Below are positions 30,819-45,426 of a stretch of DNA of 64,000 nt, in pieces. Positions within the stretch are counted from its first letter, which is position 1, and each line of letters begins with the position of its first letter. The position numbers and the translations under genes were made by a program. Origin of the DNA: Marinobacterium lutimaris. Lineage in GTDB: Bacteria; Pseudomonadota; Gammaproteobacteria; Pseudomonadales; Balneatricaceae. Under the pieces are notes generated by a model that worked only from the letters and a program-made list of their open reading frames with translations, was not told the origin of the DNA and did no database searches. The DNA lies in NCBI RefSeq assembly GCF_900108065.1, contig NZ_FNVQ01000001.1:1054001-1118000 (forward strand), given 5' to 3'.

Positions 30819-30941
30819 CAACCCGGAAGGTAAACGCTTCGGTCTTCGACCGGGATATAACTCGTCTTATATCCCCTCGCAGGTCAAAGCGTTTGTCATT
30901 CACCTGAAAGTTAAACTAGAACAACTAATCAGGAGACAACT

Positions 30942-32363
30942 ATGTCTGAATCCCAAACGCTAACGGCGGACGCGTCCTGTACGGTGGAAAGCAAGAAAGG
31001 TTTTAGCAAAATACTCGGGCTAGGCTCATTGCTGGCGGTTGCCGTCGGCCTGGTCGTATCCCAGGGTGTCATGGTCCTTATGCTACAGGGTGCAGGTATC
31101 GCCGGGCTCGGCTTTATCATCCCCCTCGCCATAGGTTTCCTGCTCGCCCTTACCTACGTGTTCTCGTTCTCTGAACTGTCGCTGATGATCCCCCGGGCCG
31201 GCAGCCTCAGCAGCTACACCGAGGTGTCCATCGGTCACTTCCCCGCCATTCTCGCGGTATTCTCCGGCTACGTTGTAGTCGCCATGTTCGCGCTCTCCGC
31301 TGAACTGCTGCTGGTCGACTTCATCATCGAGAAGATCTACCCGGGCGTATTCCCGCCGATGACCCTTGGCTTTGGCCTGCTCGGCGTATTTACCGTGCTC
31401 AACCTGATGGGCATCGATATCTTCGCCAAGCTGCAGTCTGCGCTGGCGTTCATCATGGTGGTGGTTCTGCTGCTGCTTGGCCTGAGCGCCGTAGGCGGTT
31501 TTGCCAACCCGCATCCGGCCGGTATCGAACTGACCGCCGACTGGAACCCGCTCGGTGCCGGTGTGATTTCACTGGTTGCGCTGGCTATCTGGGGTTACGT
31601 GGGCGCCGAGTTCGTCTGCCCGCTGGTTGAAGACGCCAAGGACCCCGAGCGTAATATCCCGCGCTCCATGATCATCGGTGTCAGCATCATTTTCGTCACC
31701 ATTGCGATCTACTGCCTGGGCGCACTGTTCTATATCCCGGCTGACGAGCTCGCCGCCTCCCCGCTGCCGCATTACGACTTTGCCAAAGCGGTGTTTGGCG
31801 ATACTGGGCTGATCTTCCTGGCCGTGGCCGCGATCACCGCCACCTGCAGCACCGTGAACACCTCACTGGCCGCCATCCCCCGTATGCTTTACGGCATGGC
31901 GCAGAATGGCCAGGCGTTCCCGCAGCTGAAGAAGTGCCTGCCCGGCACCAACACTCCCTGGGTCGCGGTACTCTTTGTCGCCGCGATCACCGGCCTGCCG
32001 ATGATCTTTATGGGCGACAACCCGGATGCTATCGGCCTGCTGCTGATCTCTGCCGCTATCGCCTGGCTGATCGCCTACATCATCACCCATATCAACGTGA
32101 TGGTGCTGCGCAAGCGCTACCCGGACCTGAAGCGCCCGTACAAAACCCCTTTCTACCCGCTGCCGCAGATCTTCGGTATCGCCGGTATGGTTTACGCCAT
32201 CTACTACGCCTCTCCGGCACCGGAACTGAGTGGCCAGATCTTTGGCGCCGCCGGTATCGTGCTGGCCGTGGTCTCCGTGATTGCAATCTTCTGGGTGAAA
32301 GTCGTTATGAAAAAGCCGCTGTTCAAGCCCGAGCCGATCGAAAAGGCCTTGAACGCCGAGTAA
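30942..32363 (+). CDS. APC-family amino acid/amine permease
   Basis: 473-aa integral membrane protein with about 12 membrane segments. The start of TM1 (LGLGSLLAVAVGLVVSQGVMV), SGYVVVAMFALSAELLLVD, and WGYVGAEFVCPLVEDAKDPERN in the TM6 region are typical of APC transporters (YcaM/PotE/CadB-like groups). A good ribosome-binding site (CAGGAGACAAC) precedes the ATG. It probably imports the substrate of the neighbouring deacylase and aminotransferase. Confidence 0.9.
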   Translation: MSESQTLTADASCTVESKKGFSKILGLGSLLAVAVGLVVSQGVMVLMLQGAGIAGLGFIIPLAIGFLLALTYVFSFSELSLMIPRAGSLSSYTEVSIGHFPAILAVFSGYVVVAMFALSAELLLVDFIIEKIYPGVFPPMTLGFGLLGVFTVLNLMGIDIFAKLQSALAFIMVVVLLLLGLSAVGGFANPHPAGIELTADWNPLGAGVISLVALAIWGYVGAEFVCPLVEDAKDPERNIPRSMIIGVSIIFVTIAIYCLGALFYIPADELAASPLPHYDFAKAVFGDTGLIFLAVAAITATCSTVNTSLAAIPRMLYGMAQNGQAFPQLKKCLPGTNTPWVAVLFVAAITGLPMIFMGDNPDAIGLLLISAAIAWLIAYIITHINVMVLRKRYPDLKRPYKTPFYPLPQIFGIAGMVYAIYYASPAPELSGQIFGAAGIVLAVVSVIAIFWVKVVMKKPLFKPEPIEKALNAE

Positions 32364-32390
32364 CGCTTTAACCAGGCTCAGCACAACATA

Positions 32391-32425
32391 AAGCCCCCAC
32401 AGCGTTAACCCTGCGGGGGCTTCTT
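32391..32425 (+). terminator. Terminator after the permease gene
   Basis: AAGCCCCCACAG pairs with CTGCGGGGGCTT around a short loop (one bulge), followed by CTTTACG. It separates the deacylase-permease unit from the aminotransferase, which has its own promoter region. Confidence 0.8.
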
Positions 32426-32474
32426 TACGGGCGCTCTGCCTGCATCAGTTTTATTAATCTATATCAGTAAAAAA

Positions 32475-32489
32475 TAATATTTTATCAAT
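32475..32489. promoter_or_regulatory. AT-rich shared motif upstream of the aminotransferase
   Basis: TAATATTTTATCAAT matches TAATATTTTAACAAT of the sites at 29586 and 45874 with one change. It lies about 97 nt before the start codon. Confidence 0.5.
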
Positions 32490-32585
32490 AACCCGCCACT
32501 GGATAAGGTTGTAGGGGTCAAATAACTAATATTAAAAATTCTGGATAAGAAGTTCTGGAATCGAAATTCAAGAGTACTCTCGAAA

Positions 32586-33980
32586 ATGCCCAACAAGCAA
32601 ACAACCGATATGCAGCAGGTGTGGCAGCAGGACAGAGACCACTACATCCATCCCTGGACTGATTTTTCAACCTTCAAAGAAGAAGGCTCGCTTGTCCTCG
32701 CCGACAGTGACAACGTGCACGTCAAAGATGGCGAAGGCCGCGAATACCTGGACGGCATCGGTGGGCTTTGGTGCGTTAACATCGGCTATGCCCGTGAAGA
32801 GATGGCACAGGCGATCGCAGACCAGATCCGTCAGATCCCCTACTACTCTTGCTTCGGTCACCACACCACCGTGCCTGCAGCGCAGCTTGCCGCCAAACTG
32901 GCCGAGCTGGCGCCGGGCAACCTGAACCACGTGTTCTACGGTTGCGGTGGCTCCGTGGCGAACGATACCGCCGTACGTATCATCCACTTCTACTTCAACC
33001 AGCTGGGTAAGAAGAGCAAGAAGAAGATCATTTCACGCATCGACGGCTACCACGGCAGCACCTACATGGCGATGTCGATCACCGGCGTGAAGTTCGATCA
33101 CATCGGCTTTGATATCGAAGAGCAGCTGGTGTCCCACATCTCCTGCCCGAACCCCTACCGTCGTCCGGCCGGCCAGAGCCTGGAAGAGTTCTGCAACGAG
33201 AAAGTGCAGGAGCTGGAAGACAAGATCCTGGAACTGGGCCCGGATAACGTGGCCGCGTTCTTCGCCGAGCCGATCATGGGTGCCGGTGGCGTTATCGTGC
33301 CACCCGAGGGCTACCACAAGAAGACCCTGGAAGTGTGCCGCAAATACGGCGTGCTTTACGTCTCCGACGAGGTGGTCACCGCCTTCGGCCGTCTGGGCCA
33401 CATGTTCGCCTCCGAAGCGGAGTTTGGCATAGTGCCGGACATCATCACCTGCGCCAAAGGCCTGACCTCAGGCTACCTGCCGCTGGGTGCGACCATCCTG
33501 TCTGACGAAATCTACGACGTCATCAGCAAGCCCCAGGCGGACGGCGCCCTGTTCACCCATGGCTTCACCTACTCCGGCCACCCGGTCAGCTGTGCAGCCG
33601 GCGTGAAGAACATCGAGATCATGGAACGCGAGAATCTCTGCGGTCATGTGAAGGATATGGGCCAGTACTTCGAAGACCAGGTGAAAACCCTGATCGACCT
33701 GCCTATCGTCGGTGATGTGCGCGGCCGCAAGTTCATGATGTGCATCGAGAACGTAGCGAACAAAGAGACCAAGGAACTGATCAACCCGGATGCCAAGGTC
33801 GGTAACCGCATCGCCGACCACTGTCAGGCTCGCGGCCTGATCGTACGTCCGCTGGCACACATGAACGTACTGTCTCCGCCACTGACCCTGACCAAAGAAC
33901 ACATCGACTTCCTGGTTGCCACCCTGCGCGAAAGCATCGAGGCCACCATGGAAGATCTGAAAGCCGAAGGCTTTATCTAA
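32586..33980 (+). CDS. Class III (omega) aminotransferase
   Basis: 464-aa PLP enzyme. Fold type I class III motifs: DGIGGLWCVNIGYAREEM at the N-terminus, the aromatic-binding SRIDGYHGSTYMAMS, Asp in LYVSDEVVTAFGR, and the PLP Lys in TCAKGLTSGYLPLGA (about residue 298). Members use omega-amines such as beta-alanine, putrescine, taurine or pyruvate-linked amines. The ribosome-binding site is weak. The aldehyde product could be handled by the PuuC-like dehydrogenase at 42051. The exact substrate is not readable. Confidence 0.9.
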   Translation: MPNKQTTDMQQVWQQDRDHYIHPWTDFSTFKEEGSLVLADSDNVHVKDGEGREYLDGIGGLWCVNIGYAREEMAQAIADQIRQIPYYSCFGHHTTVPAAQLAAKLAELAPGNLNHVFYGCGGSVANDTAVRIIHFYFNQLGKKSKKKIISRIDGYHGSTYMAMSITGVKFDHIGFDIEEQLVSHISCPNPYRRPAGQSLEEFCNEKVQELEDKILELGPDNVAAFFAEPIMGAGGVIVPPEGYHKKTLEVCRKYGVLYVSDEVVTAFGRLGHMFASEAEFGIVPDIITCAKGLTSGYLPLGATILSDEIYDVISKPQADGALFTHGFTYSGHPVSCAAGVKNIEIMERENLCGHVKDMGQYFEDQVKTLIDLPIVGDVRGRKFMMCIENVANKETKELINPDAKVGNRIADHCQARGLIVRPLAHMNVLSPPLTLTKEHIDFLVATLRESIEATMEDLKAEGFI

Positions 33981-34006
33981 TCACTCCCTGTCAGTGCCGC
34001 TTATCG

Positions 34007-34032
34007 AGGAGCCTTCGGGCTCCTCTTTTTTT
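34007..34032 (+). terminator. Terminator after the aminotransferase gene
   Basis: GAGGAGCC-TTCG-GGCTCCTC followed by eight T residues, 26 nt after the stop codon. A classic intrinsic terminator. Confidence 0.9.
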
Positions 34033-34053
34033 CCCTGCGGAAAGTCTCCCAAT

Positions 34054-34081
34054 CGTAGGAGCGGCGCCCCCGCCGCGATCA
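34054..34081. repeat. REP-like palindrome
   Basis: CGTAGGAGCGGCGCCCCCGC then CGCGAT: the same family as at 3810, 6651 and 15301. It marks the left border of the accessory island. Confidence 0.7.
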
Positions 34082-34269
34082 CTCCCCGCACGCTCAAACG
34101 ACTCCCGCGCCCTGCTCTGCAATTCGCCGCGTTGATGCAAAGCATGGAACCAACAGACAAGCCCAAACCCGCGGATTTTCAGCAGTGCACTTTCACGGCC
34201 AATGATCCATGCTAAAAACATCTAAGATACAACTCAGGCTCAACACAGGCTCTACACAGGGAAAATTTC

Positions 34270-34500
34270 ATGAGCAAATCAATCAAGGTTCAAGTGAAGC
34301 ATAAGAGCGACGCCCCCGAAGACCCGGCGGTGACAGCCAAGCACGACGAAGCACTGCACTTCGTCCAGGGGCTACGCAAGAAAGGCGATAATGTGAAGGT
34401 GATGGTAGACAAGCTGAACGAGCACGGTCATTTACGACCGGATGGCCAGCCTTGGGATTACGACAGCCTGAACAGCTTTATTCATGAAGAGAAGATTTGA
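34270..34500 (+). CDS. Small charged hypothetical protein
   Basis: 76 aa, Lys/Asp/His-rich and without membrane segments (KHDEALHFVQGLRKKGDNVKV, then LNEHGHLRPDGQPWDYDSLNSF). The second half resembles the turn-helix tail of some recombinase-associated domains, but too weakly to name. ACAGGGAAAATTTC precedes the ATG. The string GAGCGACGCCCCCG inside codons about 14-18 looks like a REP arm, so part of the coding region may derive from a repeat. Confidence 0.5.
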   Translation: MSKSIKVQVKHKSDAPEDPAVTAKHDEALHFVQGLRKKGDNVKVMVDKLNEHGHLRPDGQPWDYDSLNSFIHEEKI

Positions 34501-34554
34501 TGAGCTAACACAACAACACAGCGGCTACAATCAGCCGCGAACTGCTGCACCTTG

Positions 34555-35037
34555 TTAGAAATCTTGACCAAGCTTGGACCAATTCTGACTGAAATAGGTT
34601 TGAATCCCCTTGCCAGGAAGGTACCGGTGATAGAGCTTTTGAAACTCATCACGCGCAGAACTATATGAACTATCATCGATAACGGTAAGAGACCGGGCAA
34701 GGAACAACAAGGCCAGAGATGGAGCTCGAGACTCGCCTTGGTTGCAGTGAATGACCAGCGTTTTCCCGTCATCCCAGTGCTTCTTTGCGAAATCCAAAAA
34801 ACTGGAGAATAGTGCTGGCAGAAACAACGGAACCGGTGGATCAATTATGTTTAGATACAGATCTGAGCCTTGCTCCAAGACCAAGTAGTTTGGATGAGAA
34901 CTCGGCAGTGTACCCGTGTATCCAACAGCACGCTGGTGACATGGACTTTTGCATGCGTGAACAACCGCTACGTCATCAGAACCAAGCGAGCATGATGTCG
35001 CATCTGTTACGAAAAGCCTTTCATATACTTTCTGCAT
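34555..35037 (-). CDS. Protein-tyrosine/dual-specificity phosphatase-like protein
   Basis: 160 aa from the ATG at 35037, which follows AAGGAG; the frame extends 36 nt further without a site. The signature HCNQGESRAPS contains the HC-x5-R loop of cysteine phosphatases, preceded by a W-D-D-G-K-T-L-V-I strand as in that fold. It is a single gene at the edge of the AT-richer island. The target is unknown. Some phosphatases of this kind are linked to phage or plasmid functions, but nothing here proves it. Confidence 0.7.
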   Translation of the reverse strand: MQKVYERLFVTDATSCSLGSDDVAVVHACKSPCHQRAVGYTGTLPSSHPNYLVLEQGSDLYLNIIDPPVPLFLPALFSSFLDFAKKHWDDGKTLVIHCNQGESRAPSLALLFLARSLTVIDDSSYSSARDEFQKLYHRYLPGKGIQTYFSQNWSKLGQDF

Positions 35038-35186
35038 ACAGACTCCTTGTATCCCGATAAGTGGCGACCCCACAGGGGCGTCCGGTGAAGGCTGCGGACC
35101 TGAACGTACTTAATGAGTAGTTTGTGGTTTGCCCCCGTTTGACTCGATCTCAGGTCAACCACAACGGGAGCACTCCATGGTACGAA

Positions 35187-35338
35187 TCAGTTTTTGCAGC
35201 CGTTTTTGCCGCAAGTGATCCGTTCATGCGACGAAACCCAGTGGCTGGGGTTGTCACGGGTGTCGAAACCGCAACCGGTTTTACCACCTTTGTTACCTCT
35301 ATGAACCTCACCTGTTGGTGTGTGCTTAACAGCCATCT
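35187..35338 (-). pseudogene. Small Cys-rich protein gene with a one-base frameshift
   Basis: An ATG at 35338 behind GAGGAGGCATCAAG reads MAVKHTPTGEVHRGNKGGKK and then meets six A residues. A -1 shift there continues as TGCGFDTRDNPSHWV and then SSHERITCGKNGCKN, ending TGA at 35187. Both parts look strongly protein-like (Gly/Lys start, three Cys). I believe similar short proteins exist in gammaproteobacteria, unverified. A seventh A would give an intact 50-aa gene, so this is a real mutation, programmed slippage on A6-C, or a homopolymer sequencing error. Confidence 0.55.
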
Positions 35339-35559
35339 TGATGCCTCCTCACGGGTGCTAGCATATCAGGGTTACCCTGACCGCTTGGTGTACAAAAATT
35401 GTACACACAATAACCCTACACTCTGGCAAAAAACTGTTCAAGCATACAGCCTGTATAAATACACATGACGCTTTACCAAGGGGCACCGAGCGCAGCTTGA
35501 GCAGTCCCGCAGAGCCTGCTTTAGCTGGCGCAGTGTTCTTGAGCATTTTTTATGTAGCG

Positions 35560-35582
35560 AATAGGGCTCTGACCCCTATTTT
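35560..35582. repeat. GGGCTCTGACCC hairpin repeat, copy 1
   Basis: AATAGGG-CTCTGAC-CCCTATT, a perfect 7-bp inverted repeat with a 7-nt loop followed by TTTT. It overlaps the stop codon of the 35576 gene. Copies 2 and 3 are at 35890 and 36964, bracketing the two neighbouring orphan genes. Confidence 0.8.
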
Positions 35583-35860
35583 CCCTTTACGTGAAATATT
35601 TTGCCATCTTCGGTAGTGATCATAACTTCTCTACTGTGCCTGGCTTCGATCCAAGCAACTATCACCTTGGCGATTGCATTCCACGGCATGGCGTCAGAAA
35701 CAGCACTAATCACTTCTTTAACCCCAGAGGCTTGCGGGGCTGTAGAAAATATCACAGTGCGACTATGAGCAATGTCAGCTTCGTCTAATGCACGCAGGAA
35801 CGATGCTTCACTATGTTCAAATAGCGTGAGTTCCAGCACACTTACCCTTTCTGATCCCAT
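35576..35860 (-). CDS. Hypothetical protein, orphan gene bracketed by repeats
   Basis: 94-aa soluble alpha/beta protein (VLELTLFEHSEASFLRALDEADI, then SGVKEVISAVSDAMPWNAIAKVIVAWIEAR, ending REVMITTEDGKIFHVKG). The mixed strand-helix layout with a final W-I-E-A-R helix resembles small effector-associated (EACC1-like) proteins, but this is only an impression. The frame runs to the repeat at 35560 and the next copy lies just upstream of it, so the gene is packed between repeats. Confidence 0.55.
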   Translation of the reverse strand: MGSERVSVLELTLFEHSEASFLRALDEADIAHSRTVIFSTAPQASGVKEVISAVSDAMPWNAIAKVIVAWIEARHSREVMITTEDGKIFHVKGK

Positions 35861-35889
35861 GATTCTCCTACGATTTTCCCATAATGCAT

Positions 35890-35913
35890 AATGGGGCTCT
35901 GACCCCTATTTTT
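35890..35913. repeat. GGGCTCTGACCC hairpin repeat, copy 2
   Basis: ATGGGG-CTCTGA-CCCCTATTTTT between the genes at 35576 and 35970. Shares GGGCTCTGACCCCTATTTT with copy 1. Confidence 0.8.
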
Positions 35914-35969
35914 CTAAATGGAGTATAAGCCGCAATGGGAAAGGTGTTGTCATGCTTGCGTTTGTTATG

Positions 35970-36929
35970 CTACTGATTAAAAAGGTCGTAATTTTCGCCT
36001 CCTCTGATTTCCTCTAGATGACGAAAAATCAACTTAGGCCTCCTTGCGTTAAACTGCCCTTTTTCATCTAAACGACTTACTCGCCCATATAGCCGACACT
36101 GAGAAAATATAAGGTGCTTATACTGAACAATGCTGCCAATTTCGGGATAGGAGGTTAGAATATGATCATTGTACTTAAAACCCATCGAGTTTGAGGTTTT
36201 GTTCTCCCTGGTTATCTCACCTTCAAGGACGACCTCAGCACCATGCTCTAGCTCAGCAAAAAGAATTTCATCTTCCTCCTCTTCTTCATCTTGACAAAAT
36301 ATGTGCTTTTCGCTGCTGTCTATCGTAACTTCATCCAGAACGTTATCTTCAATAGACCCAATAACTAAATTTCTACCATGGGTAATATTGGATGCAACGT
36401 TCTCCAGGATGTTCGCAGGGCACTGACAGTAAAGATCTAATACGTGTTTAGGAACGTAGAGAGTATCTCCCTGATCATTCACGATACCTATTAAGCCATT
36501 CGAACTATCAAACCGAACGTCAGAAAACTTACGGATCGAAACATCCCCCATGTGTTTTCCAATCCGAGCAAACCATTTGAGCCCATCAAGAGATGCTCGA
36601 AAAATATCTTTGAACCCAAAATCCGAGAAATCTTTTTCCGCCATCTTCTGTGCAGCTTTAGTCAAGTAGGCTGTTGCAACCACACCTAAGCCTGCCTGTG
36701 TCCAACCAGCTACCGTCTCCGGTATCAAGGCTTCCCATGAGCCTTTTCTTATACGGACTGGTATCTCGAAGTCCAATCTTTGTAGGTCAGGCGCCTGCTT
36801 ACCGATAAAGTAGCGGATCGCAGAATCAAAACCCATTAATGCTTGGGCCTGCTTTCTCCCATCCATCAATCCATCTTCAACGAGAGGGCCATCATATTTT
36901 ATGTACCCCAAATATTTTTCTTCTTCCAT
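35970..36929 (-). CDS. Hypothetical protein, orphan gene bracketed by repeats
   Basis: 319 aa, not recognised. One weakly hydrophobic segment near residue 77-90 (GWTQAGLGVVATAYLTKAAQ), a highly acidic stretch (CQDEEEEEDEILFAELEHG) and a C-terminal beta-rich domain (EVVLEGEITRENKTSNSMGF). The C-terminal YKHLIFSQCRLYGRVSRLDE may be an OB-like or beta-barrel unit. Codon use is AT-richer than the flanking metabolic genes, fitting horizontal origin. Confidence 0.6.
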   Translation of the reverse strand: MEEEKYLGYIKYDGPLVEDGLMDGRKQAQALMGFDSAIRYFIGKQAPDLQRLDFEIPVRIRKGSWEALIPETVAGWTQAGLGVVATAYLTKAAQKMAEKDFSDFGFKDIFRASLDGLKWFARIGKHMGDVSIRKFSDVRFDSSNGLIGIVNDQGDTLYVPKHVLDLYCQCPANILENVASNITHGRNLVIGSIEDNVLDEVTIDSSEKHIFCQDEEEEEDEILFAELEHGAEVVLEGEITRENKTSNSMGFKYNDHILTSYPEIGSIVQYKHLIFSQCRLYGRVSRLDEKGQFNARRPKLIFRHLEEIRGGENYDLFNQ

Positions 36930-36963
36930 GATCCCCTCGTACTAGATTAAAAAATAAAGCTGA

Positions 36964-36986
36964 AAATAGGGCTCTGACCCTTATTT
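36964..36986. repeat. GGGCTCTGACCC hairpin repeat, copy 3
   Basis: AAAATAGGGCTCTGACCCTT then ATTTTTT, one mismatch from copy 1. It lies 35 nt upstream of the 35970 gene start, on the far side of that gene from copy 2. Confidence 0.8.
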
Positions 36987-37192
36987 TTTATTTTTTCTCT
37001 TAACGCGGCCTTCGCTGTTTATTTATCTGCTATGGCAAAACGGAGAACGCCGATAAAAATGGGCCAACCGTAGATCAGCCCGACTATCGGCATACAAATC
37101 AGGTACTCCATTACTATTTTACGTCGAAAATAAGTGGCGTAAAGGAAGCGTCAACTAATATGTGTCCCAGTTAATTTACCTTGATGTATTTT

Positions 37193-37459
37193 TTACTCAC
37201 GAAAACCCAATGCGGCAGCAGCTTTCACTTTTTCATTGTGTTTACTAACTGCCGCGAAACCAATAAAGATCGCCAGTACCCAGCAAATGATTGGACCTAT
37301 TATTGACGCCACAGAAGCAATGGCAATTACGCAAAGGATTAGCGCCGCTACCCAACTACTGTAGAACAATCCCAACCGACCAAATAGAAAAGTGAGAACA
37401 AATCCCAGACCTTGGCTCTTTGAGTGTGTATCAATGTATCGCTGAACTGCCTCGTTCAT
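37193..37459 (-). CDS. Small two-segment membrane protein (cassette gene 4)
   Basis: 88 aa with two membrane segments (YSSWVAALILCVIAIASVASIIG and ICWVLAIFIGFAA) and a short charged tail. AAAAGGAG lies before the ATG. It follows attC3 directly, beginning at the recombination point GCG-TTAGCT, so it is the last of the cassette genes. No attC was found after it, so its own cassette end seems lost. Confidence 0.65.
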   Translation of the reverse strand: MNEAVQRYIDTHSKSQGLGFVLTFLFGRLGLFYSSWVAALILCVIAIASVASIIGPIICWVLAIFIGFAAVSKHNEKVKAAAALGFRE

Positions 37460-37495
37460 AAGGTAAACTCCTTTTTCGTCGTGGGTAACTCGGAG

Positions 37496-37584
37496 AGCTA
37501 ACGCCGCACACAGGGGCCGGCAAAAAGCGCAGTGTTTTGCCGGCCCCTGCGACCAACGGGAGCGACTGCTGTGCTTTGTTATAT
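37496..37584 (-). other. attC site 3 (integron cassette recombination site)
   Basis: Minus strand: ATATAAC core at the 5' end, GCGTTAGCT at the 3' end, and between them a long imperfect palindrome with arms CAGGGGCCGGCAAAA / TTTTTGCCGGCCCCTG. The first bases of its cassette (TTATATTTC) are the exact complement of the site's start (GAAATATAA), the pairing expected within one cassette. Confidence 0.8.
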
Positions 37585-37585
37585 T

Positions 37586-37930
37586 TCATTTAAGCCAACC
37601 CATTAAAACCATACAGCTTGCAGCAACTTCAGTTACAGCCCCGTTATAGTTAACTCCATCTGTGGCGCCGCTTACACATTTCACTAATTCTTGAGCAAAG
37701 GGTTTAGCCGTGTTCATACTACCACTACTCTTTATTTTTTCTTTTATTGCTGGGCTTATAAACACCCAGTCTGCAGCTGTTGCCAACTTGTTTGAATGAG
37801 ACGCTGATTTCCAAGAGGAAATATCTGCATTGTGTAAATTTCCATTTTCGTACCATTTTCCTTCTGCTAAAGCAGAAAACGATACGACCGATAACATGAT
37901 TAGTGAATACTTATTTAATCCTTTAAGCAT
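37586..37930 (-). CDS. Small secreted protein (cassette gene 3)
   Basis: 114 aa from the ATG at 37930, preceded by AAAGGAGACATC. Signal peptide ends FSALAEG. The mature part (WYENGNLHNADISSWKSASHSN, then C-V-S-G-A-T and a final C-M-V-L-M-G-W-L-K) has two Cys that could form a disulfide. Secreted proteins of this size, including ones with a WYEGGTLHNA-like start, are common in integron cassettes as far as I recall. Function unknown. Confidence 0.7.
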   Translation of the reverse strand: MLKGLNKYSLIMLSVVSFSALAEGKWYENGNLHNADISSWKSASHSNKLATAADWVFISPAIKEKIKSSGSMNTAKPFAQELVKCVSGATDGVNYNGAVTEVAASCMVLMGWLK

Positions 37931-37946
37931 GATGTCTCCTTTCGAA

Positions 37947-38018
37947 ATATAACGCCCGCATTTGCGGCTAGTTTGGAGCGCAGCGGAAAACCAGTCCGCC
38001 AACATGCGCTTGTTAGCT
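37947..38018 (-). other. attC site 2 (integron cassette recombination site)
   Basis: Minus strand from AGCTAAC (38018) to GCGTTATAT (37947), with partly complementary arms AACAAGCGCATG and CGCAAATGCGGGCGTT. The stop codon TAA of the 38013 gene lies inside the left core AGCTAAC. The cassette's first bases TTAGCT match the complement of this core. Confidence 0.8.
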
Positions 38019-39326
38019 GACATACCCGTCAACTATGGCCATGAATTTCTCTGAAAATTCGCCATCTAAATGAGTATCTGCTGCGATAAGCTTGCACACT
38101 TTATCTGCCAGCTCAGCTTTTTTGTAGGTGATACCATTCCTAGCAATGTCATCTCCAGAAATTGACAACTCCCCACCTTCACCAAAAATCTTAGCCATTA
38201 TTGATTCTGGGTATAAATATTCGATACCATTCTTGCTCCAAATTACAATATTTTCTGGCAACACACCCATAGCTTCCAGCGTCCCACGAAGCCCAGTTCC
38301 ATGTACAGAATCAAGCACAACAACAATTCGATCTCTATATGGGCTTTTTTGAATATCTGTGAGCAGATTTTTTGCAGTATTAAGTACCTCTTTAATTCTA
38401 CTGTCAGAATTTGCGCTTACCACACTAAATTGGACGTTTGGATATTTTTTTGTGAGTACCTCTCGAATAAAAGCATGATCTGACTTGCCTTCGACTAAAA
38501 CAATTAGAGAGGGGAGGTATAGAGTTTCAAATCTATTTCCGAGGAGGAAGAAATGAATTTTGTTGAATTCTTGCTGTGTAGCCACCTTACTAACAGAAAT
38601 CTCATCGCCCGTTTTTTCAATAGTGTAGTTATTACTTATACGGTTTCTATCAAGAAATACCGTCGAATGCGTGGCTAAGACTAATGTTTTTATATGCGGA
38701 AAGTATTTTCCCCTGTGCTCTTTATCAAACAGAAAATCAGCTAGCACTCCCTGTGCTTCAGGACTTATTCCTAGTTCAGGCTCATCGATCAAGTAGGTGT
38801 CGTAGTCATCGTCTAAAAGGCTAGTGACTAACGTAGTTATTAGTCGAAAACCAGAGCTTGTGTACGATATGTTATGCCCTCCAACTGATATAAACTTTTG
38901 GGACATGTCATTATCAGGAACGGTATACTTAATTTCTAATTTACTACCGAGAAGTAACTCTATAATTTCGGAAAGTGTTTCGCGCTTTTTGTCTGTTAGT
39001 TCAGCTATTGCTTGCTGAAGATTGATCGGTGAATTATCAATATTCTGCTGTTGTCTATTCCATTGATGAATGAAGTTCTGCCATTTTTCGTTCTTTTTAT
39101 TCCTGTTGGGAGTGTAGTGGCCGAGCACATGGAAGTTTTGATAGCGCGCAGGCCCAAGATAGGAAGCATTGCTTCCCCATCTTTGGGTCAAAGTTTTGAG
39201 GAGGAAGGATTTTCCACAGTTATTACGCCCAACCAACACTGCATACTCGGATTCTCGAATAGACTTTAGTGTTTTTTCGGCATCATCACTAAAGTGTGTT
39301 GCTGGTTTTTGGTCGAATTCGTACAT
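38013..39326 (-). CDS. OLD-like ATPase with TOPRIM domain (cassette gene 2)
   Basis: 437-aa protein. ATPase part: Walker A GRNNCGKSFLL (about residues 33-43), ABC-type signature YTSSGFR, Walker B TYLIDEPELGISPEAQG and switch His LATHS. TOPRIM part: LIVLVEGKSDHAFI (catalytic Glu, about residue 285) and VVVLDSVHG (Asp). This is the layout of OLD/GajA-type ATP-dependent nucleases, many of which act in phage defence, but the protein is shorter than most (550-600 aa). No helicase partner as in Gabija is present. Start behind AGGGATAG. Confidence 0.8.
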   Translation of the reverse strand: MYEFDQKPATHFSDDAEKTLKSIRESEYAVLVGRNNCGKSFLLKTLTQRWGSNASYLGPARYQNFHVLGHYTPNRNKKNEKWQNFIHQWNRQQQNIDNSPINLQQAIAELTDKKRETLSEIIELLLGSKLEIKYTVPDNDMSQKFISVGGHNISYTSSGFRLITTLVTSLLDDDYDTYLIDEPELGISPEAQGVLADFLFDKEHRGKYFPHIKTLVLATHSTVFLDRNRISNNYTIEKTGDEISVSKVATQQEFNKIHFFLLGNRFETLYLPSLIVLVEGKSDHAFIREVLTKKYPNVQFSVVSANSDSRIKEVLNTAKNLLTDIQKSPYRDRIVVVLDSVHGTGLRGTLEAMGVLPENIVIWSKNGIEYLYPESIMAKIFGEGGELSISGDDIARNGITYKKAELADKVCKLIAADTHLDGEFSEKFMAIVDGYVS

Positions 39327-39339
39327 ATCTATCCCTGTA

Positions 39340-39402
39340 AGCTAACGCCGCCAGCAGAGGCGCAGCTTCGCTGCGTCCTGCTGACTGGCCTTGTTAACTG
39401 GC
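39340..39402 (-). other. attC site 1 (integron cassette recombination site)
   Basis: Minus strand from CCAGTTAAC to GCGTTAGCT. The inner part is an almost complete palindrome: GCCAG...CAGCAG-GACGCAGC-GAAG-CTGCGCC-CTGCTGGC. It starts right after the stop codon of the 39402 gene. The cassette's first bases TTAACTGGC (at 40434) are the exact complement of its start GCCAGTTAA. Confidence 0.85.
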
Positions 39403-40412
39403 TAGTCCTTTACCTTTGGAACAAGCTTGTTGATGCTGGCCATCAGCTGATTAACTTGATCCAGCCCCACATTTTTCTCATTGCTTTTTTCTATCTTTTC
39501 TTTAGACGGTGAAGTAAATATTACCTTGGAAGCTTCAGATAAAATCTGGTCTTTAACCTGATTATCAACAGCTAAATCACCATAGTTTGGCAACGATGTA
39601 GCTACAGCGGCTTTGTGTGCATATTCTTCTTCCAGGTTTCGCTCTTTCTTATATTGAGAGAAAGAAAATCCGAATAGTGCATAAACGGGAACCAAAAGAC
39701 CTATTCGCAATAGAACGGATGACCAAAGCACCCCAGAACCATTTTCTGAATTTTTAATAAGTTCAATTACAGCATCGTTATCAAAAACCCCAATGATAGA
39801 TGCGACCACAAAATAGGTGGTAACTAGCGAAGTTATAGCTGCGATTACCGACGCCCAAAACCATCGGTTTTGATTTGTATTTAAGTCCTTTTTCCTATTC
39901 TCGAAGGATTTAGAAAGAGAGCCTGCAACCGCTGGCTCAATAAGCTTGTTCACGTTTTGCTTGATTGACTCTACTTCGCGGTTATGCGCCAAAAATTTCT
40001 GAATTTCATCATCAAGTAACTGAGATTTATCTTCAAGCTCTTTCCCAAGCAAGTAAAGGTAATTTATACCCCATGTTTGAAGGTTAGTTCTGGCACTTTC
40101 AACTTGTGGAAAAGCCTGATGAAATTGCTGTTGATTTTTTGCGTTAATGAAATTCTTGCTATGGGTAAACGCATTATTCAGTTGCCCATGGAGAGAATGT
40201 AATATGTTCCATGGAATACCAGAAAGAAATCCATCCTGTTTAAACCCCTCTATGGACTTCTTTAAGTCGTCTACAGCTATTAAGTAGTCATTTAAATCCA
40301 AATTGTTCCAAGGAGGCAAATTTGGAGGATTTTCATTGAAACTTGAAAAATCCAGCGCCAATAAATTATCCACCACAGTGAGTATTTGTTGTTCTAATTG
40401 ATTCGTTGGCAC
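39402..40412 (-). CDS. Membrane/coiled-coil hypothetical protein (cassette gene 1)
   Basis: 336 aa from a GTG at 40412 behind AAGGAGAG. The N-terminal 190 residues are helical and probably coiled coil (KELEDKSQLLDDEIQKFLAHNREVESI), then two membrane segments (WASVIAAITSLVTTYFVVASIIG and SVLLRIGLLVPVYALFGFSF) and a soluble tail. It resembles membrane-effector or scaffold proteins found next to ATPases, but no family is recognised. It is upstream of the OLD-like gene, each in its own cassette. Confidence 0.65.
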   Translation of the reverse strand: MPTNQLEQQILTVVDNLLALDFSSFNENPPNLPPWNNLDLNDYLIAVDDLKKSIEGFKQDGFLSGIPWNILHSLHGQLNNAFTHSKNFINAKNQQQFHQAFPQVESARTNLQTWGINYLYLLGKELEDKSQLLDDEIQKFLAHNREVESIKQNVNKLIEPAVAGSLSKSFENRKKDLNTNQNRWFWASVIAAITSLVTTYFVVASIIGVFDNDAVIELIKNSENGSGVLWSSVLLRIGLLVPVYALFGFSFSQYKKERNLEEEYAHKAAVATSLPNYGDLAVDNQVKDQILSEASKVIFTSPSKEKIEKSNEKNVGLDQVNQLMASINKLVPKVKD

Positions 40413-40427
40413 CTATCTCTCCTTGCC

Positions 40428-40475
40428 AGTTAACAGCCTGTTAATGGGGCCTTTGGCCCCATAATAATTATTAGA
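40428..40475. other. Upstream cassette boundary with hairpin (possible degenerate attC or attI)
   Basis: Cassette 1 begins at CTG-TTAACTGGC. Next to it lie GGGGCC-TTT-GGCCCC and ATAATAATTATTA palindromes. These could be the rest of a degenerate recombination site or an ordinary terminator. No clear R'' core was found. Confidence 0.35.
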
Positions 40476-40499
40476 GGGTAAGCCCCTTAACTCCCTGAC

Positions 40500-40721
40500 T
40501 TAACTTATTGGATATTTGTAACATACTGAGTTCAAGCAGGAATTTTCGATCACATCTTTATGACGAAACGCCATAGGGTATTCGAGAGTGTTACGAGCTG
40601 ACTTAAGGGGTACTGGCGCTTCTGCGCAAAGTGATAGGCCTAACATAGGCCAAAGCTGTTCTCTATCGAAAAGCTTTCGAGTCGCTGAACCAGCTATCGG
40701 GGAGTTGTACGTATCCATCAT
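40500..40721 (-). CDS. Doubtful small ORF upstream of the cassettes
   Basis: 73 aa (MMDTYNSPIAGSATRKLFDR, later LGLSLCAEAPVPLKSARNTL), with AAGGGACTG before the ATG pair. Composition is plausible for a gene remnant, perhaps the relic of an older cassette, but no domain is visible. It may be non-coding. Confidence 0.25.
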   Translation of the reverse strand: MMDTYNSPIAGSATRKLFDREQLWPMLGLSLCAEAPVPLKSARNTLEYPMAFRHKDVIENSCLNSVCYKYPIS

Positions 40722-41036
40722 CAGTCCCTTGGATCGTGTACGGCTGTGGTAATACGTCTACTGCCTGTCTGACGTTGGAGTCAGTTTGCTACGCTTGGGC
40801 CAAAGGCACAAGTTAAATAAGGCATTTCTTAATGTTAAGTCGCTAATGGAAGTTACTGACCAACTTCAGAAACTGCTCACTACGCCCGCATTAGCATCCT
40901 TTAAGCAGTTAAAACTCATGTGATCCATCGATCCGCCCAGGCGAATCCGCCGAAAGCGCTAAAAGTATGAGATGATTGGTTTTTATTTCCTAAGGCGAGC
41001 TCAATCCACCCTCTTAACCTGGCTTCCGATCTGCGT

Positions 41037-41642
41037 ATGCGTAAACGTTTGTTACTCTTGGCCTCATCCGTTCTGCTCGCGTCCTGTGCGACGACTCCGC
41101 CTTCCAACGTGGAAAATGCCTGCAGGATCTTTCGTGAAAAGCCCGACTGGTTCGATGCATCCAAGGATGTTGAAGAGAAATGGGGTTTACCGATCCAGGT
41201 GCAGTTGGCGATTATGCGGCAGGAATCCAGCTTTAAGCATGATGCTGCCCCGCCAAGAGATACCTTCCTCGGCATCCCCATGTGGTGGCGTGTATCCAGC
41301 GCCTATGGCTATGCGCAGGTGAAAGACGGAACCTGGGATTGGTACAAGGATGCGACCGGTAACTGGGGCGCGGACCGTGACGACTACGATGACGCGGTGG
41401 ACTTTATGGGCTGGTATGCCAACGTATCCCAGCGGACGCTGGGTATCTCCAAGTGGGACGCCTACAACCAGTATCTGGCGTATCACGAAGGTCACGGCGG
41501 CTGGAAGCGTAAAAGCTACAACAGCAAGGGATGGTTGGTCCGGGTCGCCAGAAAGGTTGACGGCAACGCCCGCACGTATGGCGAACAGCTACGCGGCTGC
41601 CGGGATAGCCTGGGAACCTCGCACTGGTGGTGGCCGTTTTAA
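41037..41642 (+). CDS. Lipoprotein lytic transglycosylase (SLT-like)
   Basis: 201-aa lipoprotein; lipobox LLASC places the mature N-terminus at Cys17. The SLT-type core is IMRQESSFKHDA (catalytic Glu), AYGYAQVKDGTWDWYKD and YLAYHEGHGGW. Family proteins cleave peptidoglycan at the cell envelope. It marks the return to chromosomal backbone after the island. The start MRKRLLLL at 41037 gives a proper signal. Confidence 0.88.
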   Translation: MRKRLLLLASSVLLASCATTPPSNVENACRIFREKPDWFDASKDVEEKWGLPIQVQLAIMRQESSFKHDAAPPRDTFLGIPMWWRVSSAYGYAQVKDGTWDWYKDATGNWGADRDDYDDAVDFMGWYANVSQRTLGISKWDAYNQYLAYHEGHGGWKRKSYNSKGWLVRVARKVDGNARTYGEQLRGCRDSLGTSHWWWPF

Positions 41643-41759
41643 CCGGCAGGGCCAGTAAAAAGGCACGGGGTAGAGGAAATGGAAAATAGCTATGTCTTTC
41701 TCGTGCCTTATTAATAACAGGGCTCGATGTCTCCTGACTGCCTGAGCGCAGCACTCAAT

Positions 41760-41960
41760 CCCCTTTGGCGAAGCCGAGCATCGCAGGCTGAAAGAGAGAC
41801 AAGGGACAGGCTGTTTGAGCGCCGCAGGCGCGAGTTTCCTGTCCCGCTCTTTCAGACGAGAAGCACAGGGTAGTCGGCGTAGCCGACCAAGCCATCGGGG
41901 CGGCTTGGGATTGCAAAGGGGCTTACTTAATAACGTAAGCCGTACAAGCCCCTTTGCTCG
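41760..41960. repeat. About 200-nt non-coding element made of nested hairpins
   Basis: Four palindromic units in a row. First, CTGAAAGAG...GGGACAGG pairs with CCTGTCCC.CTCTTTCAG (41788-41855), capped by GCGCC-GCA-GGCGC. Second, GTCGGC-GTA-GCCGAC (about 41873-41887). Third, a weak stem near 41889-41907. Fourth, GCAAAGGGGCTT pairs with AAGCCCCTTTGC (41922-41957) around GCTTAC/GTAAGC. No protein coding. It looks like a miniature repeat element or a structured RNA. Confidence 0.6.
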
Positions 41961-42050
41961 GCAGCAGCCGAAACCGGCCACGAAAAGGAAGCGGATGAAG
42001 GTAATCCCAGCATTCGTTGCTGGTCTACCTCAGCTCCCTTGTAGGGAGCA

Positions 42051-43535
42051 TCAACCCAGTTTGATCCAGGTAGTCTTAAGCTGGGTGAACTTGTCCAGCG
42101 CATGCAGCGACAGGTCACGGCCAAAGCCGGACTGCTTGTAGCCGCCGAACGGTGTGCTGAAGTCCAGCGCATCCATGGTATTCACCGACACGGTACCGGC
42201 CTTGAGTTTGCGCGCTACGCGGTGAGCGCGGTTCAGGCTCTCGGTCCAGACAGATGCCGCCAGGCCGTAGATCGAGTCGTTGGCGATCGCCACCGCTTCT
42301 TCATCACTATCGAAGGTAATCACCGCCACCACCGGGCCAAACACCTCATCACGGGCGATGGTCATATCCGGGGTAACGCCATCGACGATGGTGGGCGCCA
42401 CGTAGTTGGTGGACTCATCGCCGACACCGCCGGTCAGCACCTTGCCGCCCTGCTCTTCGGCCTTTGTGATAAAGCTGCGTACGCGGCGGGCATGGTTGCT
42501 GTCGATCAGCGCACCCACCTGGGTATCGGGCTCCAGCGGATCGCCGACCTTCATCGAGCGCGCCTTGGTGATCAGCTTGTCGATAAACTGATCCTTGATG
42601 CTGCTTTCCACCAGGATACGGGAGTTGGCGGAGCAGACTTCGCCCTGGTTAAAGAAGATACCCATGGCGGCATGTTCCACTGCGGCATCCAGGTTGCAGT
42701 CGGCGAAGATCAGGTTGGGGCTCTTGCCGCCGGTTTCCGGCCACACCGGCTTCATGTTGGATTCGGCGGAGTAGCCCATCAGCAGCTTGGCGACGCCGGT
42801 AGAGCCGGTGAAGGTCAGGCAGTCGATATCGTTGTGCAGGCCCAGCGCCTTGCCGACCACTTCGCCGTAGCCGGTAACCACGTTGAGTACGCCATCCGGC
42901 AGACCCGCCTGTTTCGCCAGCTCAGCCAGACGCAGCGCGGTCAGCGGTGACTGTTCCGCCGGTTTCAGGATCACGGAGTTACCCGCGATCAGTGCCGGCG
43001 CCAGTTTCCAGGCGGCGATATCCAGCGGGAAGTTCCAGGGGATGATCGCGGCGACAACGCCGATCGGCTCGCGGGTGATGGTGGCGATGTTGTTGCCATC
43101 GGTAGGAGCGACTTCGCCGTAGAGCTTGTCGATCGCCTCGGCGTACCATTCGAAGCAGGCGGCGGAACCGGGAATATCCAGGTTCAGGGTATCCTGCACC
43201 GGCTTGCCTACGTTCAGGCTTTCCAGCAGCGCCAGCTCTTCCAGGTTTTCCATGATCAGCGCGGCCAGCTTCTTGATCACCGCCTTGCGGTGGGCCGGAG
43301 CCGCTTCGGACCATTCGCCGGAATTGAACGCACGGCGGGCAGATTCTACCGCGCTATCCACATCAGCACTGCTGCAGGCGGCGGTCTTGGCCAGCAGCTC
43401 ACCGCTGGCCGGGTTGATGGTGTCGTAGGTATCGCCGTTGCTGGCGTTTACAAAGGCGCCGTCTATGAAAGCCTGAGTCTTCAGCTCGATCTGCTGTTGT
43501 TTAGAGAGCCAGTACTCTTTGGTCTGTACAGTCAT
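42051..43535 (-). CDS. Aldehyde dehydrogenase, PuuC-like
   Basis: 494-aa NAD(P)-dependent aldehyde dehydrogenase resembling gamma-glutamyl-gamma-aminobutyraldehyde dehydrogenase. Motifs: [19 protein letters not shown], the general-base Glu in PETGGKSPN (the usual LELGGK is altered to PETGGK), catalytic Cys in [13 protein letters not shown], and FGGYKQSGFGRD. It probably oxidises the omega-aldehyde left by the class III aminotransferase at 32586. It is downstream of the aspartase gene (34-nt gap), so probably co-transcribed with it. Confidence 0.9.
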   Translation of the reverse strand: MTVQTKEYWLSKQQQIELKTQAFIDGAFVNASNGDTYDTINPASGELLAKTAACSSADVDSAVESARRAFNSGEWSEAAPAHRKAVIKKLAALIMENLEELALLESLNVGKPVQDTLNLDIPGSAACFEWYAEAIDKLYGEVAPTDGNNIATITREPIGVVAAIIPWNFPLDIAAWKLAPALIAGNSVILKPAEQSPLTALRLAELAKQAGLPDGVLNVVTGYGEVVGKALGLHNDIDCLTFTGSTGVAKLLMGYSAESNMKPVWPETGGKSPNLIFADCNLDAAVEHAAMGIFFNQGEVCSANSRILVESSIKDQFIDKLITKARSMKVGDPLEPDTQVGALIDSNHARRVRSFITKAEEQGGKVLTGGVGDESTNYVAPTIVDGVTPDMTIARDEVFGPVVAVITFDSDEEAVAIANDSIYGLAASVWTESLNRAHRVARKLKAGTVSVNTMDALDFSTPFGGYKQSGFGRDLSLHALDKFTQLKTTWIKLG

Positions 43536-43569
43536 CTTTATCCTCCATTGGCTACCGCGTTAGACGGCG

Positions 43570-45426
43570 TTACTTATTTGTGAGTAGTTCGGTTTGCGCC
43601 TGTTTGCGCATACGTCGGGGCGCGGTCATCGCATCGATACTGAGCACTTCGTTCAACTCTGCTTCGCTGAGCAGCCCCTCGGCCAGCACCAGGTCACGCA
43701 CACTCTCACCGTTGGTCACCGCCTGTTTTGCGATACGACTGGCATTATCGTAGCCAATATAGGGGTTGAGTGCGGTAATAATGCCGATACTGTTGTTTAC
43801 CAGGTCCAGGCAACGCTCCCGGTTGGCGGTGATACCGCGAATGCATTTGGCTGACAGCGTGTTGATGGCGCGAATCTGCAACCGCAGCGACTGCAACACG
43901 TTAAACGCCAGCACCGGCTCCATCACGTTCAGCTGCAATTGACCGGCCTCGGCGGCCAGTGTGACGGTGATATCGTTGCCTATAATCTGGAACGCCACCT
44001 GGTTCACCATCTCCGGGATCACGGGGTTGACCTTGCCGGGCATGATGGAGCTGCCGGGCTGCATCGGCGGCAGATTGATCTCCTGCAGCCCCGCCCGCGG
44101 CCCGCTGGAGAGCAGGCGCAGGTCATTACACATCTTGGACAGCTTCACCGCATTGCGCTTGAGCACGCTGGAGAAGGTGACGAACGCGCCCATATCAGAG
44201 GTGGCTTCGATCAGGTTGCGGGCACGTACCAGCTCCTTGCCGGAGATCTGGGAAAGCTCCTCAATGGCGAGGCTGGAGTATTCCGGGTCACTGTTGATAC
44301 CGGTGCCGATGGCGGTGGCTCCCAGGTTGATCTCGCGGAAGTACTCCAGTACATCCTTGGCTTCCTCTATATCCTCTTTCTGCGTCACATACCAGGCGTC
44401 GAACTCCTGCCCCAGGGTGATCGGCACGGCGTCCTGCAACTGGGTGCGGCCCATTTTCACCACATCGGAAAACTCCACCGCTTTCTGTTTCAGCTCGTAG
44501 CAGAGCCCGGACAGCGCCTTCACGTATTCATCGTGACTCAGCAGGATGCCCAGGCGAATCGCCGTGGGGTATACATCGTTGGTGGACTGCGAAAGGTTCA
44601 CGTGGTTATTGGGGTGCAGCTGGTGATAGTCGCCCTTGGCGTAGCCCATCAACTCGAGCGCCCGGTTCGCGATCACCTCGTTGGCGTTCATGTTGGTGGA
44701 GGTACCGGCGCCGCCCTGGATCACGTCCACCATAAAGTGATCGTGCCATTTACCGGCGATGATCTCGTCGCAGGCTTCGCTGATCGCATTGGCGCGACGA
44801 TCATCAAGCAGGCCCAGCTTGCAGTTGGCCCGTGCCGCGGCCTTTTTCACCATGGCCAACGCGATCACCAGCTTGGGGAAATGGCGCAGCTGAATATCGG
44901 TGATGGCAAAGTTCTGCATCGCGCGCAGCGTCTGCACGCCGTAATACGCCTGCTGGGGTACATCCATCTCACCCAGCAGATCCTTTTCACGGCGCAGGTT
45001 ATCCGGCCGTTTCGCCTCAGCCACCGCCTCACTGCGTGAGGTGGCCAGCTTCATCAACGGCAGCATCAGGGTGCCGTTCAGTTCAGCCTGTGCCAGCCAG
45101 GCGCGCAATCGCGCCAGCTCAATGGTCAGCAGCTGCACAGGGCCCTTGGCGATCAGCGTGCCCCTGGCTTCAACAGAGCCATAAAGCGATTCCAGTGCGC
45201 TGCAGGCCACCGGCGCCGTGAAGTCGACGGTCAGTCCCTCAAGGTCGTACTGGCATTCGCCATCCAGCAGCAGCACCAGTTGATCGGGATGAGCGGCCAG
45301 ATCGAAGCGCCCGCCCTGTTGCAGCGTGGTCAGCCGGCAGAACATCAGCAGGCTGCTGAATTCGGTATCAGGCAGGGAGTCGCATTGCAGAACGGTCTTG
45401 ATAGCTTTTTTGTTATTGGCGTTCAT
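43570..45426 (-). CDS. Aspartate ammonia-lyase with extra N-terminal sensor-like domain
   Basis: About 618 aa from the ATG at 45426; the frame is open 42 nt upstream from a TTG. Residues about 150-615 are a full aspartase/fumarase-superfamily enzyme: KDLLGEMDVPQQAYYGVQTL, GGAGTSTNMNANEVIANRAL and the signature GSSIMPGKVNPVIPEM. The first ~145 residues are additional, with a beta-roll pattern (LLLDGECQYDLEGLTVDFTA, then STRSEAVAEAKR after it) resembling a degenerate cyclic-nucleotide-binding domain. Normal AspA is about 470-480 aa. It would convert aspartate, or a related N-substituted succinate, to fumarate and ammonia or amine. The extra domain suggests allosteric control. Confidence 0.85.
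   Translation of the reverse strand: MNANNKKAIKTVLQCDSLPDTEFSSLLMFCRLTTLQQGGRFDLAAHPDQLVLLLDGECQYDLEGLTVDFTAPVACSALESLYGSVEARGTLIAKGPVQLLTIELARLRAWLAQAELNGTLMLPLMKLATSRSEAVAEAKRPDNLRREKDLLGEMDVPQQAYYGVQTLRAMQNFAITDIQLRHFPKLVIALAMVKKAAARANCKLGLLDDRRANAISEACDEIIAGKWHDHFMVDVIQGGAGTSTNMNANEVIANRALELMGYAKGDYHQLHPNNHVNLSQSTNDVYPTAIRLGILLSHDEYVKALSGLCYELKQKAVEFSDVVKMGRTQLQDAVPITLGQEFDAWYVTQKEDIEEAKDVLEYFREINLGATAIGTGINSDPEYSSLAIEELSQISGKELVRARNLIEATSDMGAFVTFSSVLKRNAVKLSKMCNDLRLLSSGPRAGLQEINLPPMQPGSSIMPGKVNPVIPEMVNQVAFQIIGNDITVTLAAEAGQLQLNVMEPVLAFNVLQSLRLQIRAINTLSAKCIRGITANRERCLDLVNNSIGIITALNPYIGYDNASRIAKQAVTNGESVRDLVLAEGLLSEAELNEVLSIDAMTAPRRMRKQAQTELLTNK

Follow-up and report, generated by a model that had tools for sequence, protein, structure and literature searches.

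We analysed a 64 kb window of the Marinobacterium lutimaris genome (G000, 5.57 Mb in 21 contigs; the window is C18:1054001-1118000), which between 34.5 and 40.49 kb carries an integron cassette array with a landing site (attI) at its head and no integrase gene (intI) beside it. Three intact attC sites, all on the minus strand, separate four genes of the same strand; behind the same attI in Marinobacterium mangrovicola (G041), the nearest relative among the genus genomes searched, the contents are different, and many further attI copies in the family carry cassettes and no intI. Cassette 1 (39346..40433, minus strand, as are all the features listed here) runs from attI to attC1 (39340..39399) and holds gene 1 (39402..40412; 336 aa), which matches no curated family above cut-off. 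Cassette 2 (37953..39345), delimited by attC1 and attC2 (37947..38018), holds gene 2 (38013..39326; 437 aa), an AAA_21 ATPase and candidate phage-defence effector. Cassette 3 (37502..37952) lies between attC2 and attC3 (37496..37584) and contains gene 3 (37586..37930; 114 aa), and a fourth cassette contains gene 4 (37193..37459; 88 aa), both without a family above cut-off.

An initial annotation of this DNA had described three attC-like palindromes lying between four same-strand genes, and this description is borne out by two scorings; the attC and attI models used were all built within the present analysis. Twenty intI-adjacent stretches were fetched from relatives and 12 of them rule-scanned, from 11 of which a set of 32 attC sites passed; after trimming, 11-14 of the 14 expected pairs are present in 31 of these sites, and 6 in the remaining one. 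A pair-and-column score derived from the 32 sites, with the window excluded, reaches 55.9, 53.0 and 50.4 at attC1, attC2 and attC3, against 17.7 at most elsewhere in the 64 kb and a top score of 21.3 in 30 first-order Markov sequences of 64 kb. The scores and controls together rule out chance palindromes as an explanation of the sites. An Infernal covariance model built from 20 of the 32 sites (R1) agrees, matching all three at 45.1, 49.7 and 32.8 bits (rough E-values of 3.4e-8, 2.6e-9 and 2.9e-5, respectively). The limits originally assigned to the second and third sites hold, while the first had been drawn 3 bases too long (39340-39402 instead of an end at 39399). attC2 resembles attC of relatives, for example L062:168-239, and attC3 is 88-93% like attC in loci L133 and L136. 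A search of 36-42 kb against Rfam returned zero matches at E<=1.

The cassette limits are marked by the pairing that circularised cassettes of a complete integron display. Over the six bases beyond GTTA, the starts of cassettes 1 to 3 match their own attC at 6, 5 and 6 positions, compared with an average of 2.67 for non-own pairs, so that the complementarity pointed out at the outset stands. The same tendency is seen in four other arrays (own-attC mean 4.1, n=14; non-own 1.9, n=46), and at five intI-less attI the agreement between the first cassette and its own attC is likewise high, at 4-6 of 6 bases. The TAA stop that ends gene 2 (38013-38015) does fall within an attC core, namely R'' of attC2 (38012-38018).

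Past cassette 4 a candidate decayed attC is found at 37116..37187 on the minus strand (R1 17.3 bits, E 0.15; E 0.0083 unfiltered in 7 kb), followed by an older distal part (34555..36929, minus strand) whose same-strand genes at 35970-36929, 35576-35860 and 34555-35073 are unmatched in the M. mangrovicola locus. A covariance-model scan found no attC above 7 bits between these distal genes. A weak candidate for a decayed terminal attC (34503..34560, minus strand; 9.1 bits at E 0.76, which by itself is not significant) lies 5 bases from a homology breakpoint at 34498, and the variable segment continues to about 34.5 kb, past the limits first given to the array. attC scores tend to drop with distance along the array; as new cassettes enter at attI, the distal ones should be the oldest. 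Two inverted copies of a short AGGGTCAGAGCCCTATT-like motif were also noted by eye in this old distal part, at 35550-35590 and 36945-36985.

The stretch at the head of the array (40431..40488, minus strand, 58 bp) was detected through its repetition and consists of a hairpin directly before a crossover G^TTA, with the crossover point G^T at 40433..40434. Aligned copies share the consensus CTAATAATTATTATGRGGYC, loop, GRCCYCATTAACAGRCTG^TTA, and non-orthologous copies part ways immediately past GTTA. A model (R2) made from 55 copies found by likeness to the window attI, the window copy included, gives a single strong match across the window (77.2 bits, E 7e-13), the one weak match (16.8 bits) being the hairpin read from the opposite strand. 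The window copy matches sites adjacent to intI (82 and 89% in genome G039, 90% in G041; blastn) as well as many intI-less places, and homology with the M. mangrovicola locus stops at most 11 bases from the crossover point in the junction alignment (WIN/L132). Judged by this likeness and by the junction position, the array is headed by an attI, as is a complete integron.

Across family copies 97.7% of the cells in the hairpin of attI (columns 27-45) are paired, and two of its eight pairs vary on both sides (UA 27, CG 24; AU 48, GC 6), a count in which related copies enter repeatedly and which is only suggestive of compensatory changes. Read on the plus strand, the hairpin resembles an intrinsic terminator directed away from the cassettes; two such sites occur in 751 bases versus 0.7 expected. 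A consensus scan of 40300-41050 for a cassette promoter (Pc) gave no sigma-70-like sites. About 300 bp upstream of attI lies a conserved non-coding block (40711..40830, minus strand) whose copies elsewhere are 72-83% identical; it was flagged at 11 intI-less attI copies and at none of 18 copies rated intI-linked by a loose intI scoring. The upstream region also includes, at 41689-42050, a repeat of about 350 bp that is scattered in many copies through both this genome and G041.

That the window contains no integrase, as the initial annotation had it, is confirmed by the positions of the genome's 13 tyrosine-recombinase matches, all of which fall outside it, and the array locus thus lacks the intI of a complete integron. 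Searching the whole genome with TIGR02249 located one integron integrase, at C18:1512734-1513693 (full model, 421.6 bits), some 418 kb from the array attI; this sole intI is a pseudogene with one TGA and two TAA inside, and six further match stretches reach at most 80.1 bits (cut-off 265). The pseudogene adjoins a decayed attC (R1, 23.6 bits), and next to it the attI query matched over 20 bases only (positions 91-110). This main integron locus is shared with M. mangrovicola, to whose intI the pseudogene is 93.6% identical, with a flank at 96.9% (blastn); there the gene is open (381 aa, 438.1 bits, zero stops).

Comparison of 16 kb of the window with the orthologous M. mangrovicola locus (blastn) gave two aligned blocks only, 40423-44230 (95.6%) and 30822-34498 (96.5%). 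The relative has a matching attI, no intI, and in place of the window cassettes a wholly different set with genes of 277, 289 and 262 aa. The first block stops 11 bases beyond the attI crossover, and the second starts, in both species, where an attC candidate ends; this candidate is weak in each (9.1 bits here, score 23.0 there). Relatives with the same gene order and no palindromes would have spoken against cassettes; this locus, the one compared in full, has other cassettes and other attC. Homology stops 3-11 bases beyond the attI crossover at three of four loci orthologous between the two species, the break at L079/L139 and L140/L141 falling 3-4 bases beyond G^TTA. A cassette that L140 and L141 have in common follows an attI copy in the window's genome but an attC in M. 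mangrovicola. Platforms with homologous flanks recur in other species (L135/L144/L145, L134/L138/L078), which suggests that the sites are old and their contents young.

A census of the family places the locus among many of its kind. From 74 attI-like places scoring at least 22, six below 34 were left out, leaving 68 distinct copies picked by attI likeness and not by attC; at least two of the six are themselves attI, their hairpin loop being longer (L028 beside intI, and L106/L134, intI-less with attC). With IntI queries from 15 of 29 IntI loci, kept by a motif filter, the fetched sequence showed an intI of more than 250 bits upstream on the opposite strand at 11 of the 68 copies (one of them, in G039, a pseudogene with three stops), a relic or cut piece at 10 and none at 47, of which 43 have at least 1.2 kb of upstream sequence. 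Where intI-less attI have at least 1.2 kb upstream and at least 2 kb downstream (n=29), a same-strand attC lies within 5 kb downstream in 23 cases and upstream in none. Over 116 family genomes R2 found at least 150 attI copies, distributed over 50 of the 116 among the matches listed. By coordinates, 16 of the 150 listed copies lie beside intI, 5 at contig starts, and 129 away from intI, although minus-strand copies among the 129 may sit at contig ends and some may carry intI relics. Among the 35 attC clusters of the genus, 17 are headed by an attI (4 accompanied by intI and 13 not) and 2 lie at contig starts; in the window's genome attI heads three of four clusters. The attC cluster of this genome at G000:C10:737159-738020 (L080) has no attI found at its head. 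A strict-pattern scan of named genomes returned 47 loci in Marinobacterium, Nitrincola, Motiliproteus, Porticoccus, Methylophaga and unclassified gammaproteobacteria, and the strict attI pattern was not found in viral contigs.

Taken together, we consider it very probable that the array is a satellite integron platform that was loaded in trans and is now frozen. A resident attI without intI would have received circular cassettes one by one from IntI made elsewhere in the cell; an IntI from another locus would thus have acted at the window attI, and M. mangrovicola retains an open intI at its main integron site. Loading of the present copy would have ceased because the only intI of the genome is a pseudogene. 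On balance we lean, by a small degree, towards extending the scheme to the family: one integrase would serve a dispersed network of attI platforms in trans, making the integron a genome-wide multi-site system, and part of the catalogued clusters of attC sites lacking integron integrases (CALINs) would be such satellites, missed since attI is not searched for.

Several observations weigh against trans loading. Recombination at the array is deduced from its sequence and none was observed. The candidate terminal attC at 34503-34560 reaches only 9.1 bits, attC was not seen at the far breakpoint of L079/L139, in the fourth orthologous pair (L078/L142) attI was not found in the relative's L142, and at L140 (G000:C18:211449-213521), which carries two attI, no attC scores above 15. 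More broadly, 6 of the 29 intI-less attI copies have no downstream attC, and no attI was found at 16 of the 35 genus attC clusters, one of them in the window's genome. In 22 of 46 genomes with intI-less attI there is no intI at 1e-60 among the matches listed, so that these genomes may at present have nothing that acts in trans. Finally, intI relics or cut pieces accompany 10 of the 68 attI copies, 8 of which have upstream sequence of 1.2 kb or more, indicating that some intI-less platforms arose by local loss.

These relics, which lie on the expected strand and at the expected place, are also what gives weight to the strongest alternative: that the locus formerly held a complete integron whose own intI was lost, leaving a fossil never loaded in trans. 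We regard this as unlikely for the window locus, where no IntI match (E 1e-5) occurs within 1.6 kb upstream of attI. The M. mangrovicola locus is likewise intI-free (the sole intI match of that genome is at C1:594124), with collinear flanks and wholly different cassettes; since both species lack intI here and yet differ in their cassettes, the exchange would have come after the loss, barring two separate losses of intI. Less probable still is a block swap of the array, in which strains recombined homologously through the conserved flanks and IntI played no part. The near-identical flanks make such recombination possible, and with a donor using the same attI, block replacement could produce junctions of this sort, but the junctions fall at the attI crossover at three loci instead of being scattered through the flanks, and a cassette that neighbours attI in one species neighbours attC in the other. 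Insertion at non-classical attG sites, forming a CALIN without any attI, is the least credible, for although attG is reported as a cassette target across bacterial genomes (Loot 2024, as cited in the accessible text of PMC12444791, PMC12901181 and PMC11023631), it is disfavoured by the left boundary, a 58-bp attI that also occurs next to intI elsewhere and that in the relative heads a different set of cassettes.

Phage-defence genes are probably among the cassettes. By its sequence, gene 2 is predicted to be an ATPase of the OLD/AbiEii kind: its profile matches are AAA_21 (40.8 bits, cut-off 27) and, below threshold, an OLD-like TOPRIM domain (17.3, cut-off 23.2), and it matches an OLD-family chain in the PDB (E 0.0072). 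It further scores 58.8 bits with the PADLOC AriA model and 44.4 bits with the retron Eco8 effector, far short of the latter's cut-off of 250; a role in defence may be proposed on this basis. No homologues of gene 2 were found in plasmids, and a search of 194 genomes of the order at 1e-25 returned the gene itself only. Gene 1 has distant plasmid matches at 27-30% identity (10 of 25 records listed). Defence genes also occupy neighbouring platforms. At an intI-less attI of the same genome (L078:2588-4247; G000:C10:214087-215746) the first cassette is a full Kiwa pair (KwaA 260.3 bits, KwaB 444.7 bits) followed by an attC, and the M. mangrovicola orthologue of the window platform starts with an Abi_C/AbiJ-like gene.

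Identical genes (100%) are present at two platforms of one genome in M. marinum (L173/L164) and M. sediminicola (L155/L181). Cassette exchange was rejected as their origin: at the DNA joins, nearly identical stretches begin at both platforms with TAACAAG, where an attC starts, and so resemble attC-targeting insertion sequences (the IS1111-attC kind); these pairs are not counted as evidence. The repeated pair L048/L140 likewise resembles an insertion sequence. Locus L140 also carries an insertion resembling an insertion sequence. Separately, an intI-less Methylophaga array (L172:6989-7572) and an intI-linked array of another genome (L063:4626-5209) share a cassette gene at 90% DNA identity, with differing attC.

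How cassette clusters without an integrase originate is, to our knowledge, unsettled. The presence of attI at 17 of 35 genus cluster heads, together with 129 intI-less against 16 intI-linked copies among the 150 listed, makes this origin directly testable. If trans loading is correct, a cell would hold several cassette landing sites under one integrase. The elements themselves (attC, attI and CALINs) are already known; in the available text of the matches listed for intI-less attI and for integrons of Marinobacterium, Porticoccus, Methylophaga and Nitrincola, a search with subscription journals mostly outside its scope, dispersed intI-less attI platforms are not described, which suggests that these are the new part.

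Several known systems resemble the array in part. Like a CALIN, as the initial annotation classed it, it has several attC and no neighbouring intI, and the definition (at least two attC, no intI nearby) fits; it is not the mere orphan cluster then envisaged, having its own conserved attI at the head, other contents at the corresponding fixed position of a relative, further platforms in the genome and a greater length. That a functional IntI mobilises CALIN cassettes in trans has already been stated (accessible text of PMC12444791). According to the portion available of its description, IntegronFinder 2.0 does not detect attI, which outside class 1 is poorly described (PMC9024848), and a CALIN report would therefore miss the attI of such an array. 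In Xanthomonas, CALINs at conserved chromosomal loci have been set against the attG insertions of E. coli, which are broadly spread (PMC12444791); they share with the window array the integrase-less cluster at a conserved chromosomal place and differ in that attI is not mentioned at those loci in the accessible part of that description. Insertion at attG (Loot 2024, as cited in the available text) likewise puts cassettes at a distance from the main integron, whereas the target in the window is a conserved attI. With a complete chromosomal integron the array has in common an attI followed by one-strand cassettes with attC, and it differs in that the locus is intI-free and one of several platforms per genome.

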